Assembly (NCBI RefSeq): GCF_000221045.1
Contig: NC_015856.1
Location: forward strand, 1,054,001 to 1,118,000
Direction: 5' to 3'
DNA length: 64,000 nucleotides
DNA from: Collimonas fungivorans Ter331
Lineage (GTDB): Bacteria; Pseudomonadota; Gammaproteobacteria; Burkholderiales; Burkholderiaceae_D
Shown here: positions 43,242-50,461 of the stretch, one piece after another
Layout: each line of letters begins with the position of its first letter
Position numbering within the stretch: the stretch's first letter is position 1
Program-made: the position numbers and the translations under genes
The notes under the pieces: model-generated
The model's input: only the letters and a program-made list of their open reading frames with translations
The model's database searches: none
What the model was told of the DNA's origin: nothing

Positions 43242-44384
43242 ATGGCGGAAGAAAGCGATCTCGAAAAAACGGAACCCGGTTCTCCCCGGCGCCTGGAAAA
43301 GGCGCGCGAAGAAGGCCAGGTTGCCCGTTCGCGCGAGCTGAGCACGTTTGTCATGCTGAGCACCGGCATCGGCGGCTTGTGGCTGACGGCGGCGCCGATG
43401 GCTGAGCACATCGGCCATGCCTTGCGGCAGGGCATGCAATTCAAGCGCGCCGCCGCCTTCGACTCCGCTTACATGCTGACCCAGGCCGCCGCTGCCGGAC
43501 AGGAAGCGCTGCAGGCCTTGCTGCCCTTGCTGGCCATGCTGGCGCTGGCGGCACTGACAGCGCCGCTGATGCTGGGCGGCTGGCTGTTTTCTCCTGATGC
43601 GCTGGCGCCGAAATTCTCCAAGCTGAACCCTGCGACCGGCATCGCCCGCATCTTCTCCAGCCAGTCGCTGGCGGAACTGTTCAAGGCATGCACCAAGTCG
43701 GTGCTGGTGGGCGGCATCGCCTACTGGGTCATGTCGCGCAACCTGGATACATTGCTCGGGCTGCTGAGCGAGCCGGTGCATGGCGCGCTGGCGCATACGG
43801 TGCGGCTGGTGGCCAACTGCTGCGGCCTGATCATCGCTTCCTTGCTGCTGGTGGCAGCGATCGACGTGCCGTATCAGTTATGGAGTTATTACCGCAAGCT
43901 GCGCATGACGCGCGAAGAGCTGAAGCAGGAACACAAGGAAAGCGAAGGCGATCCGCACGTCAAGGGCCAGATCCGGCGCCAGCAGCAACAGATGGCGCGG
44001 CGGCGCATGATGGCCGAGGTGGCGACCGCCGATGTGGTGGTGACCAATCCGACCCACTTTGCGGTCGCGCTCAAATACAGCGACAAGGAAATGCGCGCGC
44101 CGCGCGTGGTGGCAAAAGGCACCGACCTTGTGGCGCTGCGCATCCGCGCCATCGGCGCCGAACACAAGATTCCCATGCTGGAAGCGCCGCCGCTGACGCG
44201 GGCGCTGTATCGCCATACCAGCCTCGGCGAAGAAATCCCGGCCGCCCTGTACACCGCGGTAGCTGAAGTGCTGGCCTGGGTTTACCAGCTGCAGCGCTGG
44301 CGCAGCGAGGGCGGCATTGCGCCGCGCGCTCCGGCCGACCTGGCGGTTCCCGATTCATTAGACACTTTAGCGAGCCCGGCATGA
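43242..44384 (+). CDS. flhB: Flagellar export apparatus protein FlhB
   Basis: 380 residues: SDLEKTEPGSPRRLEKAREEGQVARSRELSTF leads into four membrane segments, then the cytosolic domain with the self-cleavage site VVVTNPTHFAVALKYS (NPTH), RAPRVVAKGTDLVALRIRAIG and EAPPLTRALYR. It switches the export gate from hook to filament substrates. flhA overlaps its stop by four bases. Confidence 0.97.
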   Translation: MAEESDLEKTEPGSPRRLEKAREEGQVARSRELSTFVMLSTGIGGLWLTAAPMAEHIGHALRQGMQFKRAAAFDSAYMLTQAAAAGQEALQALLPLLAMLALAALTAPLMLGGWLFSPDALAPKFSKLNPATGIARIFSSQSLAELFKACTKSVLVGGIAYWVMSRNLDTLLGLLSEPVHGALAHTVRLVANCCGLIIASLLLVAAIDVPYQLWSYYRKLRMTREELKQEHKESEGDPHVKGQIRRQQQQMARRRMMAEVATADVVVTNPTHFAVALKYSDKEMRAPRVVAKGTDLVALRIRAIGAEHKIPMLEAPPLTRALYRHTSLGEEIPAALYTAVAEVLAWVYQLQRWRSEGGIAPRAPADLAVPDSLDTLASPA

Positions 44385-46486
44385 AGCCTGCAGGATCAGC
44401 TTTTTCATTCAGTTCCTTGCCCCGCCTGGGGGCCGCCATATTGGCCGGCAACAGCGTCAAGGGCATGGCTGGTCCGGTGCTGATCATCATGATCCTGGGC
44501 ATGATGATATTGCCCTTGCCGCCTTTCCTGCTCGATTTGCTGTTCACCTTCAATATCGCGCTGTCGGTGATGGTGCTGCTGGTCAGCATGTACACCATGA
44601 AGGCGCTGGACTTTGCCGCTTTTCCCACGGTCCTGCTGTTTTCGACTTTGCTGCGCCTGTCGCTCAACGTCGCTTCTACCCGGGTAGTGCTGCTGGAAGG
44701 CCATACCGGTCCGGATGCCGCCGGCAAGGTGATCGAAGCCTTCGGCCATTTCCTGGTGGGCGGCAATTTTGCGGTCGGCATCGTGGTTTTCGTGATCCTG
44801 GTGGTGATCAATTTCATGGTCATCACCAAGGGCGCAGGACGGATTGCCGAAGTCGGCGCGCGTTTCACGCTGGATGCGATGCCGGGCAAGCAGATGGCGA
44901 TCGACGCTGACCTCAACGCTGGCCTGATCGGCGAAGACGTGGCGCGCAAACGCCGCGCAGAAGTCGCGCAGGAAGCGGATTTCTACGGTTCCATGGACGG
45001 CGCCAGCAAGTTCGTGCGCGGCGACGCCGTGGCCGGTTTGCTGATCATGGTGATCAACGTGGTCGGCGGCCTGATCGTCGGCGTCGCCCAGCATGGCCTG
45101 GATATTTCGGTGGCGGCCAAGAACTACACTTTGCTGACCATCGGCGACGGCCTGGTGGCGCAGATCCCGGCGCTGGTGATTTCCACCGCGGCCGGCGTCA
45201 TCGTCTCGCGCGTGACGACCGATGAGGACGTCGGCCAGCAGCTGATGGGGCAATTGTTTTCGAATCCGCAGGTGCTGTTCCTGACCGCCGGCATCATCGG
45301 CCTGATGGGACTGGTGCCGGGCATGCCGCATGTGGCGTTCCTGATCATTGCCGGCGGCCTGGTCTATCTCGGCCGGCGCTTGCTGCAGAAAACCGCTGCG
45401 GCGGAATATGCGGCCAAGGCGCCGCCGCCTTCCGCCGCGGCTGCAGAGCCGGCAGACGCCAGCTGGGACGACGTGGCGCTGGTCGATCCGCTCGGGCTGG
45501 AAGTCGGCTACCGGCTGATTTCGCTGGTGGACCGCAGCCAGAACGGCGAGCTGCTGGGGCGCATCAAGAGCATCCGCAAGAAATTCGCGCAGGACATCGG
45601 TTTCCTGGTGCCGGTGGTGCATATCCGCGACAACCTTGAACTCAAGCCGAATTCCTATGTGATCACGCTGAAGGGCGTGGAGATCGCCAACGGCGAAGCC
45701 TGGCCCGGGCAATGGATGGCGATCAACCCGGGCCAGGTCAGCGCCACCTTGCCCGGCGTGCAGACGGTCGATCCTGCCTTCGGCCTGCCGGCGGTATGGA
45801 TCGAAAGCCATATGCGGGAACAGGCGCAGATCTACGGCTATACCGTGGTCGACGCCAGCACCGTGATCGCCACCCACCTGAACCACCTGATCCATGCCCA
45901 TTCGGCGGAACTGTTGGGGCGGCAGGAAGTGCAGCAGCTGCTGGACCGGGTCGGCAAGGATGCGCCGAAGCTGATCGAGGACCTGGTGCCGAAGCTGCTG
46001 TCGCTGACGACATTGCAGAAAGTACTGCAAAACCTGCTGGACGAAAGCGTCTCGATACGCGACATGCGCACCATCCTCGATGTCCTGCTGGAACACGGAG
46101 CCGCAGTCAGCGACGCCACCGAGCTGACCTCGCTGGTGCGGCTGGCGCTGGGCCGGGCCATCACCCAGCTGCTGTTCCCCGGCAACGGCGAACTGCAGGT
46201 GATCGGCCTCGACAGTTCGCTGGACCGGGTCCTGCTGCAGGCGCTGAGCAATGGCAGCGGCCTGGAGCCGGGACTGGCCGACAGCCTGCTGGCGCAGACC
46301 CAGGCGGCGATTACGCGCCAGGAGCAGTTCGGCCTGGCGCCGGTGCTGGTGGTGCAGCATCCGCTGCGGGTCTTGCTGGCGCGGTTTTTACGGCGCAGCC
46401 TGCCGCAGCTCAAAGTGCTGTCGCATGCCGAAATCCCTGACACCCGCACCATCAAAGTAACCGCCACTATCGGAGGCAAAGCTTGA
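44381..46486 (+). CDS. flhA: Flagellar export gate protein FlhA
   Basis: 701 residues with eight membrane segments and a large cytosolic ring domain. RLSLNVASTRVVLL and the FHIPEP-type signature GAGRIAEVGARFTLDAMPGKQMAIDADLNAGLI are clear. The C-terminal part starts after the Ala/Pro linker at about 345. It forms the nonameric export gate. flhF begins at or just after its stop. Confidence 0.97.
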   Translation: MKPAGSAFSFSSLPRLGAAILAGNSVKGMAGPVLIIMILGMMILPLPPFLLDLLFTFNIALSVMVLLVSMYTMKALDFAAFPTVLLFSTLLRLSLNVASTRVVLLEGHTGPDAAGKVIEAFGHFLVGGNFAVGIVVFVILVVINFMVITKGAGRIAEVGARFTLDAMPGKQMAIDADLNAGLIGEDVARKRRAEVAQEADFYGSMDGASKFVRGDAVAGLLIMVINVVGGLIVGVAQHGLDISVAAKNYTLLTIGDGLVAQIPALVISTAAGVIVSRVTTDEDVGQQLMGQLFSNPQVLFLTAGIIGLMGLVPGMPHVAFLIIAGGLVYLGRRLLQKTAAAEYAAKAPPPSAAAAEPADASWDDVALVDPLGLEVGYRLISLVDRSQNGELLGRIKSIRKKFAQDIGFLVPVVHIRDNLELKPNSYVITLKGVEIANGEAWPGQWMAINPGQVSATLPGVQTVDPAFGLPAVWIESHMREQAQIYGYTVVDASTVIATHLNHLIHAHSAELLGRQEVQQLLDRVGKDAPKLIEDLVPKLLSLTTLQKVLQNLLDESVSIRDMRTILDVLLEHGAAVSDATELTSLVRLALGRAITQLLFPGNGELQVIGLDSSLDRVLLQALSNGSGLEPGLADSLLAQTQAAITRQEQFGLAPVLVVQHPLRVLLARFLRRSLPQLKVLSHAEIPDTRTIKVTATIGGKA

Positions 46487-46488
46487 AC

Positions 46489-48879
46489 ATGAGCTTGAAT
46501 TTGAACACAAGCATGAGCACTGACAGCGTCACCATCGTCGCGCCGTCCAGCCGCGAAGCGCTGCGCCTGGTGCGCGAGCAGCTGGGGCCGGACGCCATCA
46601 TCGTTTCCAGCCGCGTGACTGCCGCCGGCGCCGAAATCGTCGCCATGCTGGAATCTGCGGGCGATGCGCGTACGGCGCCGGCATCAACCCCCGCTGTTGC
46701 TGCACCGGCGGCGCAGCCGGCAGCAAGCGCCGCCGCGTCATTCGGCATGGACAGCAACGGTAGCGTTATCAGTGAAATTCATTCGATGCGCGGCATGATC
46801 GAAGAGCAGCTGGCCGGCCTGGTGTGGAACGACAAGCAGCGCCGCGATCCGGTGCGCGGCCACCTGCTGCGCACCTTGCTGGGCGCCGGCTTCAGCGCCA
46901 GCCTGGCGAAAGCGATGCTGGATCATTTGCCGACCGGCCAGAATTTTTCCTCCGGCATGGCTTGGGTCAAGGCTGAACTGGCGCGCAACCTGCCCTTGAT
47001 GGAAAACGAAGATGCGCTGATGGATGGCGGCGGCGTCTACGCCCTGATGGGCCCGACCGGAGTAGGCAAGACCACCACCACCGCCAAGCTGGCGGCGCGC
47101 TGCGTGATGCGCTTCGGCGCCGACAAGCTGGCGCTGCTGACTACCGACAGCTACCGCATCGGCGCATTTGAACAGCTGCGCATTTACGGCAAGATCCTGG
47201 GTGTGTCGGTGCACGCGGTGAAAGACGCTGCCGACCTGCGGCTGGTGCTGGAGGATTTGCGCGACAAGCACATGGTTCTGATCGACACGGTCGGCAAGAG
47301 CCAGCGCGACCGCAGCGTGTCCGACCAGGTCGCCATGCTGTGCGGCGCCGGCCGTCCGGTCAAGCGCCTGCTGCTGCTGAACGCCGCCAGCCATGGCGAC
47401 ACCCTGAATGAAGTGGCGCACGCCTATAAGGACAGCGCCGGCGGCAACCAGCTGGCGGGCTGCATCTTTACCAAGACCGACGAAGCCACCCATCCCGGCG
47501 CATTGCTGGATACCGTGATCCGTCACCGGCTGCCGGTGCATTACGTCTCTTGCGGCCAGAAAGTGCCGGAAAACCTGCTGCTGGCCGAGCGTACGCAACT
47601 GGTCGACAGCGTGTTCCAGAACGCCAGCCGCAGCGCCTTGTTTGTTCCGGGCGAAGCCGGTCTGGGCGAACTGCCGGCGGCATTGAACAACGATATCGAA
47701 CTGGCTGCCGCAGCGGCCGCCACGGAACGTTTGCGCAGCCAGTGCCAGCAACTGATCCGGGTGCTGGCGCACGATGCCGAAGAACTGGCCGCCAACGCCC
47801 GTGCGCTGGCCGATGGCGGAATCGGCTTCGAGACCAGCAGCGGATTGTGGCGATGCCTGGCAGACGACAGCGCAGGCAGCCAGGCGGTAGCGCACACACT
47901 GATGGCGCACGCAAAAACGGAAATAGGCCTTGCCTGCACCACCCATGTGCTGGCAATCAGCGGCAAGACCGAACTGGTCGCCAGCCGCAGCGGCGACGCT
48001 TATGCCTTGCAGTCCAGTCTATTGCTGTCGGATCGCGACGGCGTGCCGCTGGCGGCGCCCCATCAATTGCTGTCGACCGCGCTTGCCGCCAATGCAAGCA
48101 ACGTCATGCCGACACCGGCGCTGCGCCAGCTAGCCTGGATGCATGGCCAGGATTTCGGCAAGCCGGTGGTGCACCTGCTCGACAGGATGCCGGCGCCAGG
48201 CCTGATCGATTCCTGGCAGGCCGGCGGCCTGTCATGGCTGGCCCGGGCTCGCAGCACGACGCGCGTAGAGTGCGACGGCGTCGGGACAACCGTGGCGCGA
48301 CTGACCGCGCAACTGGTCTTCACTGCGCCGCAGATGATTACTTACAAAGGCAGGCCGGCGCAGCAGACACTGGCGGAAACGGCAGTCACCCTGGATGGCG
48401 ATTTGCGTTGCGTTGCCGTGCGTATCACCGATCAGCCCAACGGCAAGCTGCTGGCCAGCTGGCATTTGCTGACCAATCTGGGGCCGGCGGCGACGGCATC
48501 GCAGCTGGCCGCATGGAGCTGCTGGAAACAGGCCGCCGATCCCTATTACAAATTGCTCAAGCAAGCCATCCTGCAGCTCGGCGCCTGCACCGAACCGGGC
48601 GACAGCCATATGCAAAAGCGCTTGCTAGTTGCCGCCCAGGTCAGCACCACCGTCTGGCGCCTGGCCCAGAGCCGGAACGACTGGGCCGCTCCGGCGCGCA
48701 CATTGCTGGCGCAACTGGCCGGACACCGGATCCGTTCCGGCTCGGTCACCGTCGCCTCCGCTGCGGCGCTGTTTGAAGGTTTCGGCAAGCTGATCGCGCT
48801 GCTGGATGCCCTGGCGCTGGACGCCGATAACGTTGCCGCCGTGGCGCCGGCGCACGGCGCGGCGGCGTTGCCCGGATGA
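46489..48879 (+). CDS. flhF: FlhF GTPase fused to a Tn5/IS4-type transposase-like domain
   Basis: About 796 residues (ATG at 46489; a TTG at 46483 sits better behind GGAGG and would add two). N-terminus: VTIVAPSSREALRLVREQLGPDAIIVSSRV. The SRP-type GTPase has GPTGVGKTTTTAKLAA (G1, residues 188-203), LTTDSYRIGAFEQLR, VLIDTVGKSQRD (G3) and TKTDEATHPGALLD (G4), ending near VPENLLLAERTQLVDSVF (about 380). FlhF positions the flagellar pole and acts with FlhG. Known FlhF proteins usually end near here; this one continues for about 415 residues that track a Tn5-like transposase (separate entry). The frame is uninterrupted and codon use does not change. Confidence 0.93.
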   Translation: MSLNLNTSMSTDSVTIVAPSSREALRLVREQLGPDAIIVSSRVTAAGAEIVAMLESAGDARTAPASTPAVAAPAAQPAASAAASFGMDSNGSVISEIHSMRGMIEEQLAGLVWNDKQRRDPVRGHLLRTLLGAGFSASLAKAMLDHLPTGQNFSSGMAWVKAELARNLPLMENEDALMDGGGVYALMGPTGVGKTTTTAKLAARCVMRFGADKLALLTTDSYRIGAFEQLRIYGKILGVSVHAVKDAADLRLVLEDLRDKHMVLIDTVGKSQRDRSVSDQVAMLCGAGRPVKRLLLLNAASHGDTLNEVAHAYKDSAGGNQLAGCIFTKTDEATHPGALLDTVIRHRLPVHYVSCGQKVPENLLLAERTQLVDSVFQNASRSALFVPGEAGLGELPAALNNDIELAAAAAATERLRSQCQQLIRVLAHDAEELAANARALADGGIGFETSSGLWRCLADDSAGSQAVAHTLMAHAKTEIGLACTTHVLAISGKTELVASRSGDAYALQSSLLLSDRDGVPLAAPHQLLSTALAANASNVMPTPALRQLAWMHGQDFGKPVVHLLDRMPAPGLIDSWQAGGLSWLARARSTTRVECDGVGTTVARLTAQLVFTAPQMITYKGRPAQQTLAETAVTLDGDLRCVAVRITDQPNGKLLASWHLLTNLGPAATASQLAAWSCWKQAADPYYKLLKQAILQLGACTEPGDSHMQKRLLVAAQVSTTVWRLAQSRNDWAAPARTLLAQLAGHRIRSGSVTVASAAALFEGFGKLIALLDALALDADNVAAVAPAHGAAALPG
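47718..48876 (+). other. Tn5/IS50-like DDE transposase-like C-terminal domain of FlhF (catalytically altered)
   Basis: Residues about 410-796 of FlhF. By eye they match the order of Tn5 transposase from the DNA-binding start to the dimerisation end: THVLAISGKTEL aligns to the LAIEDTTSL block (first Asp replaced by G492), KPVVHLLDRMPAPG to the AVCDREADI block (D565 kept), SWLARARSTTRVE to the FVVRS block, SWHLLTNLGPAATASQLAAW to the LKWLLLTSEPV block, KQAADPYYKLLK to the RWRIEEFHKAWK block (R to K680, E to D684, K691 kept with the same seven-residue spacing) and VASAAALFEGFGKL to ASWGALWEGWEAL. No terminal inverted repeats were seen. Confidence 0.72.
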
Positions 48880-48889
48880 GGAGGCGCGT

Positions 48890-49693
48890 TTGAACAAGGT
48901 GGTCAGCGACCAGGCGGACGGTTTGCGCTGCCTGATGGCACAGCATTCAGGCAAGCAGGTGGCGCATGTCATCGCCTTGGTCGGCAGCAGTCCAAGGGTA
49001 GGCGTGACCAGCGTGGCCCTGAACCTGGCCGCGGCGCTGGTGCAGCAGGGCAAAGAAGTGTTGCTGCTGGACGAACAGAGCGGGGCGCGGTCGGCAGCTG
49101 CGATGTGGGCAGGCGCTGCGGCGGGCAGCTGGTCCGATGTTGCAGGCGGCTTGCCGCTGTCGGCTGCAGCTTCGCGCCTGGCTTGCGGCGCGCTGCTGCT
49201 GGCGGTGCGAAAAGACGATGCGACTGCAGCGGCCGAGGTGCGCAATGCGTTCCAGGGACAGGTAATCCTGATCGACGCCAGCCTCGGCCAGGATGGCGCC
49301 TTGTCGCCGCTGGCGGCGCAAGCCGACGATGTGGTGGTGGTGTTGCGGCCACAGGCGGCGTCGATTACCGCTGCCTATGCTTGCGTCAAGCAGCTGCATT
49401 ACGCGCATGCGTTGCAGCGCCTGAGGATCATGGTCAATCTGGCGGCCGGCGTGCCGGCGGCGCAGCACGTGCTGAACAACCTGGCCGGCGCCGGCAGCCG
49501 TTACCTGGGCCTGGCGCTGGAACCTGCCGGTTGCGTGGCGGAGGATCCGCAGCTGGTGCGCGCGCAAGGACTCAAGTTGAGCGTGGTGGAGGCATTCCAG
49601 ACTAGCGCCGCGGCAATCGATTTTCGCCGCATCGCCGGCCAGCTGCTGCAATGGCCGCGCCCTGTTGTTAACCGAAATCTGGACACTGTGTGA
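48890..49693 (+). CDS. flhG: FlhG/FleN-like MinD-type protein with altered P-loop
   Basis: 267 residues from TTG at 48890 (GAGGAGG eight bases upstream). Position after flhF and the order HVIALVGSSPRVGVTSVALNLAAALVQQGKEVLLLDEQSG, VILIDASLGQDG, ADDVVVVLRPQAASITAAYACVKQL and RIMVNLA identify a FlhG/ParA-type fold. The deviant Walker A motif should read KGGVGKT; here it is SPRVGVT (residues 34-40), so both lysines are missing and ATP-dependent dimerisation is doubtful. FlhG normally limits flagellar number with FlhF. Confidence 0.85.
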   Translation: MNKVVSDQADGLRCLMAQHSGKQVAHVIALVGSSPRVGVTSVALNLAAALVQQGKEVLLLDEQSGARSAAAMWAGAAAGSWSDVAGGLPLSAAASRLACGALLLAVRKDDATAAAEVRNAFQGQVILIDASLGQDGALSPLAAQADDVVVVLRPQAASITAAYACVKQLHYAHALQRLRIMVNLAAGVPAAQHVLNNLAGAGSRYLGLALEPAGCVAEDPQLVRAQGLKLSVVEAFQTSAAAIDFRRIAGQLLQWPRPVVNRNLDTV

Positions 49694-49717: not shown

Positions 49718-50461
49718 ATGTATACGGCTCAGGGAAAAATCGACAAATCCGACACGCTGGCGCAATACGCGCCGCTGGTGCGGCGCCTGGCTTTGCAGTT
49801 GATCGCGAAATTGCCGGCCAGCGTGGAGCTGGACGACATGATCCAGGCCGGCATGCTGGGTTTGCTGGATGCCGCCAACCGCTACCAGGACGACCAGGGT
49901 GCGCAATTCGAAACCTACGCCAGCCAGCGTATCCGCGGCGCGATGCTGGACGAACTGCGTGCCAACGACTGGCTGTCGCGCGGCCTGCGCCAGTCGTCGC
50001 GCAAGGTCGACGCCGCGGTGCAGGCATTGGAGCAGAAACTGGCGCGCCCGCCCAGCGAGCGTGAGATCGCGCAGTCCATGCAGCTGTCGCTGCAAGACTA
50101 CCAGCACCTGCTGCAGGAGATCCATGGTTCGCAGCTGGTGTATTACGAAGACTGCGAAGGCGGCAGCAATGAAAATTCCTTTCTTGACCGTCAGCATGAC
50201 GATGGCCATCGCAGCGGCGCCGGCGATCCGCTGCAACGTCTGCTGGACAGCGGTATGCGCCATATGCTGGTGGAGGCGATCGCCCTGATGCCGGAACGTG
50301 AGCGTTTGCTGCTCAGCCTGTACTACGAACAGGAACTGAATTTGCGCGAAATCGGCGCCGTGCTGGAAGTCAGCCAGTCGCGCGTCTGCCAGCTGCATAG
50401 TCAGGCTATCAGCCGCTTGCGGGTGCGCCTGAACGAAACCAGCCGGAGCGAAATTGCCTGA
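49718..50461 (+). CDS. fliA: Flagellar sigma factor 28 (FliA)
   Basis: 247 residues. Region 2: YAPLVRRLALQLIAKLPASVELDDMIQAGMLGLLDAANRYQDDQGAQFETYASQRIRGAMLDELRANDWLSR; region 3: RKVDAAVQALEQKLARPPSEREIAQSM; region 4: LLLSLYYEQELNLREIGAVLEVSQSRVCQLHSQAISRLRVRL. It transcribes late flagellar and chemotaxis genes. Its anti-sigma factor FlgM is encoded 1.4 kb downstream on the other strand. Confidence 0.97.
   Translation: MYTAQGKIDKSDTLAQYAPLVRRLALQLIAKLPASVELDDMIQAGMLGLLDAANRYQDDQGAQFETYASQRIRGAMLDELRANDWLSRGLRQSSRKVDAAVQALEQKLARPPSEREIAQSMQLSLQDYQHLLQEIHGSQLVYYEDCEGGSNENSFLDRQHDDGHRSGAGDPLQRLLDSGMRHMLVEAIALMPERERLLLSLYYEQELNLREIGAVLEVSQSRVCQLHSQAISRLRVRLNETSRSEIA

Follow-up and report, generated by a model that had tools for sequence, protein, structure and literature searches.

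A transposase-derived tail on the flagellar GTPase FlhF of Collimonas fungivorans Ter331

FlhF and the closest described systems

FlhF is the protein that governs flagellar placement. Its canonical form consists of B, N and G domains, and its GTPase forms a GTP-dependent homodimer, according to a review (PMC12826062). We analyzed the FlhF encoded by Collimonas fungivorans Ter331 in a stretch of 64,000 nucleotides (NCBI RefSeq assembly GCF_000221045.1, contig NC_015856.1, positions 1,054,001 to 1,118,000 of the forward strand; the whole stretch is called the window) and found that its C-terminal ~400 residues derive from a whole IS4-family (Tn5-like) transposase, with the parts in the transposase order. 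The N-terminal region, the signal recognition particle (SRP)-type GTPase and the site behind flhA are common to the canonical and the window FlhF, but the former stops after the GTPase whereas the latter carries the tail. These results suggest the recruitment of a jumping gene for the assembly of flagella.

The predicted fold of the tail is the same as that of the Tn5 (IS50) transposase and its inhibitor. Unlike Tn5, the tail is devoid of the first catalytic Asp, is fused behind a GTPase and is nearer to another IS4-family group. The nearest relatives found, the L072/L065-type transposases of the divergent IS4 family, have the same part order as the tail, but they are free-standing and retain the catalytic residues (L081, with Asn, excepted). 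Their relatives on named plasmids are annotated "transposase". In eukaryotes, host genes are well known to have captured transposases. Other recruited mobile-element proteins are CSB-PGBD3 in primates (PMC3459987) and the phage-encoded TldR, which is reported to regulate flagellin (PMC13418256). Both resemble the FlhF tail in being transposon-derived, with the old activity gone and a host or flagellar role, but they come from other transposase classes and do not involve FlhF, and TldR is no fusion with a flagellar protein.

Long FlhFs have already been noticed as sequences. The NCBI model NF011312/PRK14723, "flagellar biosynthesis regulator FlhF" (768 positions), has the same full-length architecture as the window FlhF, residues 16-775 of which aligned with model positions 6-766 (E 1.9e-256); despite this near end-to-end alignment the score, 853.4 bits, was below the curated cut-off of 951. 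The transposase domain is marked neither in the model name nor in Pfam. The preliminary description, made from the letters of the window, knew of no FlhF described with this architecture, a statement to be qualified in that the model already spans it as plain FlhF. Our result identifies the C-terminal part of this model, with the caution that the model also scores true transposases. In the open-access PMC literature (bioRxiv and most subscription journals lie outside it), no title or beginning of an abstract, including those of PMC8987985 and PMC4690342, described the tail domain, and PMC12826062 and PMC12713375 contained the word "transposase" 0 times. A search of the open-access literature, aimed mainly at FlhF, turned up no bacterial host protein fused to a DDE (Asp-Asp-Glu) transposase. 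Transposase domestication is a known phenomenon; what appears to be new is that it took the form of a fusion with a flagellar GTPase of bacteria.

Transposase ancestry of the C-terminal part

The region 46489-48879 of the forward strand, on which all features given below lie, translates to 796 residues with no internal stop, and the single flhF frame running on past the GTPase for about 415 residues, as claimed in the preliminary description, is thus uninterrupted. The frame given there begins with ATG at 46489; the true start is probably TTG at 46483, which gives a gene of 798 codons (46483..48879). TTG is favoured because its TTGA overlaps the flhA stop and a GGAGG motif is placed 6 nt upstream. 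Among 16 loci compared (two further loci stood outside the comparison) the TTGA overlap was common to 11, four of them having no nearby in-frame ATG. The SRP54-type GTPase domain occupies 47035..47616 (residues 183-376; PF00448, E 6.1e-34, 117.8 bits against a cut-off of 22.7), and the protein scored 249.3 bits with the FlhF model TIGR03499 (cut-off 174.15).

The tail, 47722..48816, aligned with positions 12-415 of a 436-position transposase hidden Markov model (HMM; 135.5 bits, E 2.8e-40). When this model was run against 2560 targets (512 window frames, 47 short FlhFs and, made from the tail, 2000 shuffled sequences and a single reversed one), FlhF was picked at E 2.4e-43 and the runner-up, a shuffled tail, had E 0.95; none of the 47 short FlhFs was among the matches listed at E ≤100. 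Two pairwise alignments of the tail with transposases were colinear over ~380 residues at 27-29% identity (E 6e-39 and 3e-23), and hhalign joined the tail to Tn5-type transposases of the NF033590 kind over 323 columns (P 1.3e-6, Prob 90.6). In the search with the predicted tail structure, ranks 1-6 were the Tn5 transposase or its inhibitor and the next chain had E 0.049. The predicted fold of the tail is the RNase H-like fold of Tn5, matched over ~300 residues with 14-18% identity there, and Tn5 scored far above other RNase H-like chains. Residues 414-478 (47728..47922) were aligned to the transposase N-terminal region, which binds DNA in Tn5, and share R414, W454 and R455 with it. The C-terminal helices, about residues 709-785 (48613..48843), aligned with the transposase end, which has a dimerising role in Tn5. 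Altogether, the profile, the predicted fold and the survey presented below back the earlier claim of an in-frame Tn5/IS4-type domain with altered catalytic residues, and both the profile match and the structural match on which that claim had been made to depend were found. The nearest relatives are a divergent IS4-family group rather than Tn5 itself.

Several results weigh against this ancestry. In a single-sequence Pfam search the tail matched 0 families at E 10, the PDB-sequence search with a single sequence gave nothing significant, only chance matches, and the 18-row tail profile had no PDB match at E 1. The link between the tail and the transposases thus depends on intermediate sequences and on the predicted structure. 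In NCBIfam the tail alone reached only E 0.01 with an IS4 transposase model, and NF033590 gave 14.8 bits, under its cut-off of 160. Two other matches were discarded as chance: platelet factor 4 (PDB sequence, E 1.5) and a fosfomycin-resistance transferase model (E 0.0015), the latter scoring 18.7 of 275 bits, far below its cut-off, and having another fold. The C-terminal part of NF011312 itself matches free-standing transposases. With four of these (L072, L065, L079 and L081), the NCBI FlhF model outscored every NCBIfam transposase model, all scores being far below the cut-offs.

Catalytic columns were compared by aligning 18 FlhF tails to nine nearest-group transposases and to five from elsewhere, and the placements of G492, D565, K680, D684 and K691 made in the preliminary description all proved correct. 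The first catalytic Asp, at the column of G492 (47962..47964), is lost in 18/18 fusions (Gly in 16, Ala in 1, His in 1), so the DDE triad is incomplete. The second Asp is kept in the window FlhF as D565 (48181..48183), as had been noted, but not as a general trait, being found in only 12/18 fusions (Glu in 3, other residues in 3). The Y-R-E-K signature, the hallmark of the IS4 family, reads S677, K680, D684, K691 in the window FlhF (R, E and K columns at 48526..48561); in the fusions the Glu column holds Asp in 9, Glu in 5, Lys in 3 and a gap in 1, and the Lys column holds Lys in 9, Arg in 5 and other residues in 4. Among the nine nearest-group transposases L081 has Asn at the first Asp and two are without that stretch; otherwise the catalytic residues are retained at the columns checked. 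Since a DDE enzyme requires its first catalytic Asp, lost in all 18 fusions, we infer that the FlhF tail no longer cleaves DNA. The residue class was retained in a fraction of 0.80 of FlhF cells at the 106 hydrophobic transposase columns, 0.55 at the 20 basic columns and 0.23 at the 12 acidic columns, which means that the core was kept, the metal site dismantled and the basic surface thinned but not erased. Positions fixed only in FlhF were R424 and Q717 (18/18) and G704 (17/18).

Spread, origin and maintenance of the fusion

Long FlhFs were surveyed in overlapping genome samples of the family, order and class of the window. In the family, 10/195 genomes had a long FlhF whose match extended to the model end: 7/12 in the genus of the window, in which the other five gave no more than distant matches to the GTPase (best E ~1e-11), two in genus g146 and one in g145, the other three listed g145 genomes having a 440-residue frame. 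The order sample (399 genomes) contained 11 matches to A1, eight of them fusions in families f1, f4, f31 and f49, the remaining ones being transposases L065 and L070 and the short frame L069. In the class sample (369 genomes) six matched: the FlhF of the window and five with transposases or pieces. Among the NF011312 matches listed for 300 order genomes, at least five reached the model end and G267 matched over 94-742; one order genome, G158, scored above the model cut-off. Tail matches in named genomes were five loci, all of Collimonas, 72-90% identical. The survey called for in the preliminary description hence shows that the long fused FlhF recurs across four families of the order. A Collimonas silvisoli RXD178 contig (L004:3804-6245) carries a long flhF and an flhG-like frame, contrary to one report, in which flagellar genes were not detected in this species (PMC11288634). 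By eye, in three short FlhFs of f31 (L113, L114 and L115; 591-683 residues) the GTPase is separated from the N-terminal part by a long stretch, and their frames stop about where the tail would start.

In the tree of tails and transposases, built without L077 (on account of its length) and without L065, the 18 FlhF tails formed one clade (100/99) and shared a branch (100/100) with the L072-type transposases. The five Tn5-type transposases fell outside it; the NF033590 kind is therefore not favoured as the direct source. In the GTPase-only tree of 53 rows, whose short FlhFs were the best-scoring ones only, the long FlhFs made one clade (98/99). To counter this bias, 11 short FlhFs and a long one were added from other lines (65 rows); the 18 long FlhFs then grouped with three short Burkholderia-like ones (100/99), apart from 44 short FlhFs, many of which come from the window's own family. 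The f4, f31 and f1/f49 sets were separate groups in both the tail tree and the 65-row GTPase tree. The approximately unbiased test on 65 rows did not reject a single clade of long FlhFs (p 0.156), and both one gain with one loss and a strict clade of long FlhFs are compatible with it. A single capture in an ancestral flhF is simplest because all 18 fusions sit on one branch; the simplest history would thus be one fusion, followed by one loss in the Burkholderia-like line. The spread of the fusion does not track the families, which implies either that flagellar genes were transferred or that losses were numerous. The capture is old and probably of single origin, in four families of one order, and natural short relatives together with a single removable domain on a well-studied GTPase offer a clean experimental system.

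The tail frame is open in 18/18 fusions of the four families. The ratio of nonsynonymous to synonymous substitution rates (dN/dS) of the tail was 0.18-0.42 in 10/11 pairs, the eleventh being saturated, and 0/1000 bootstrap resamples reached 1 in the seven pairs bootstrapped. Purifying selection in many species thus accompanies the in-frame descent from a transposase. Selection maintains the tail both as an open frame and as a protein sequence, though the constraint is below that on the GTPase (dN/dS 0.013-0.16). This weaker constraint counts against a retained domain, as do the three short Burkholderia-like FlhFs inside the long clade, which indicate that FlhF can function tail-less. Leaving the scaffold role discussed below aside, it is very probable that the tail is a transposase-derived domain which has been retained and does not cleave DNA.

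Possible roles of the tail and its flagellar neighbourhood

The FlhF GTPase homodimerises and the Tn5 transposase acts as a dimer on DNA; hence the least demanding reading, we infer, is that the tail acts as a protein scaffold, a second contact surface for FlhF itself or for a partner. It would join two FlhF molecules, or present a surface on which a flagellar or polar partner could dock, and would thereby keep FlhF at the flagellar assembly site. By analogy with these dimers such a role is plausible, to our minds at slightly less than an even chance.

That the tail is instead a DNA-binding module, gripping DNA uncut and so mooring FlhF to the chromosome or regulating flagellar genes, seems rather unlikely. 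Of the 20 columns conserved as basic in the transposases, 13 have a basic residue in half or more of the FlhFs; 16/18 fusions retain W454 and R455, and the isoelectric point of the core is at least 8 in 14/18 FlhFs (range 6.9-9.4). Against this, Lys and Arg make up 8.3-11.1% of FlhF tails vs. 10.1-16.4% of transposases, an Arg present in 8/8 transposases having that column is replaced in 17/18 FlhFs, and no binding site is known. Somewhat more doubtful still is the proposal that the captured, non-cutting transposase still grips DNA and that FlhF links flagellum assembly to the chromosome; if true, the nucleoid would inform flagellar placement or flagellar gene control via a former jumping-gene enzyme.

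The weaker constraint and the short FlhFs nested among the long ones would also fit a functionless remnant of some old insertion that is tolerated since the GTPase works alone. The dN/dS values with no bootstrap reaching 1, the frames open across four families and the residues that became fixed in FlhF alone, R424 and Q717 among them, speak against it and make it improbable. Slightly poorer yet are the prospects of a decoy, which would block related active transposases by pairing with them. The short inhibitor of Tn5, which is without the N-terminal region of the transposase, acts in this way by pairing, but FlhF retains that region. A decoy is made unlikely by the genome itself, where the search of its one contig (5,186,898 bases) revealed no second tail-like copy at E 10 (8/8 candidates scored), and the eight order genomes with a fusion had one match each at E 0.001 (up to four candidates scored per genome). 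A chance likeness or convergent RNase H-like fold, for which the empty or chance direct Pfam and PDB-sequence searches might speak, is hardly credible in view of the colinear pairwise alignments, the profile match and the rank of Tn5 above other RNase H-like chains.

The window FlhF occupies the flagellar operon place, flhB-flhA-flhF-flhG-fliA. flhB (43242..44384; TIGR00328, 405.4 bits, cut-off 349.25) and flhA (44381..46486; TIGR01398, 910.6 bits, cut-off 772.1), whose TGA stop overlaps the flhF TTG, precede it, and fliA, encoding sigma-28 (49718..50461; NF005413, 304.1 bits, cut-off 201), follows an FlhG-like MinD-type protein (searched part of the frame, 48911..49690). The FlhG assignment rests on weak, sub-cut-off MinD matches and on the DQAxxLR helix, kept here as DQADGLR. 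The P-loop of FlhG/MinD-type proteins is usually KGGVGKT; the region reads GSSPRVGVTS in the window protein and is degenerate. Many relatives from the order share such a degenerate FlhG P-loop, whatever the length of their FlhF, and a rule that the tail accompanies a broken FlhG P-loop was rejected because many short-FlhF relatives are also degenerate. FlhC was rejected as a discriminator too, being present in 22/24 genomes examined, with long and short FlhF alike.

The window FlhG query had no match at E 0.01 in 3/4 f4 fusion genomes (L117, L128, L129 and L130), and in the fourth the best match lay at a distant place (E 0.0055). By eye, flgA-like frames stand directly behind flhF in 3/4 of these genomes and no FlhG-like frame was seen. 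If FlhG is truly missing there, the tail functions without FlhG. In L116, an f4 locus with a short flhF, no P-loop was seen by eye in the next frame, which begins with an FlhG-like DQA helix.
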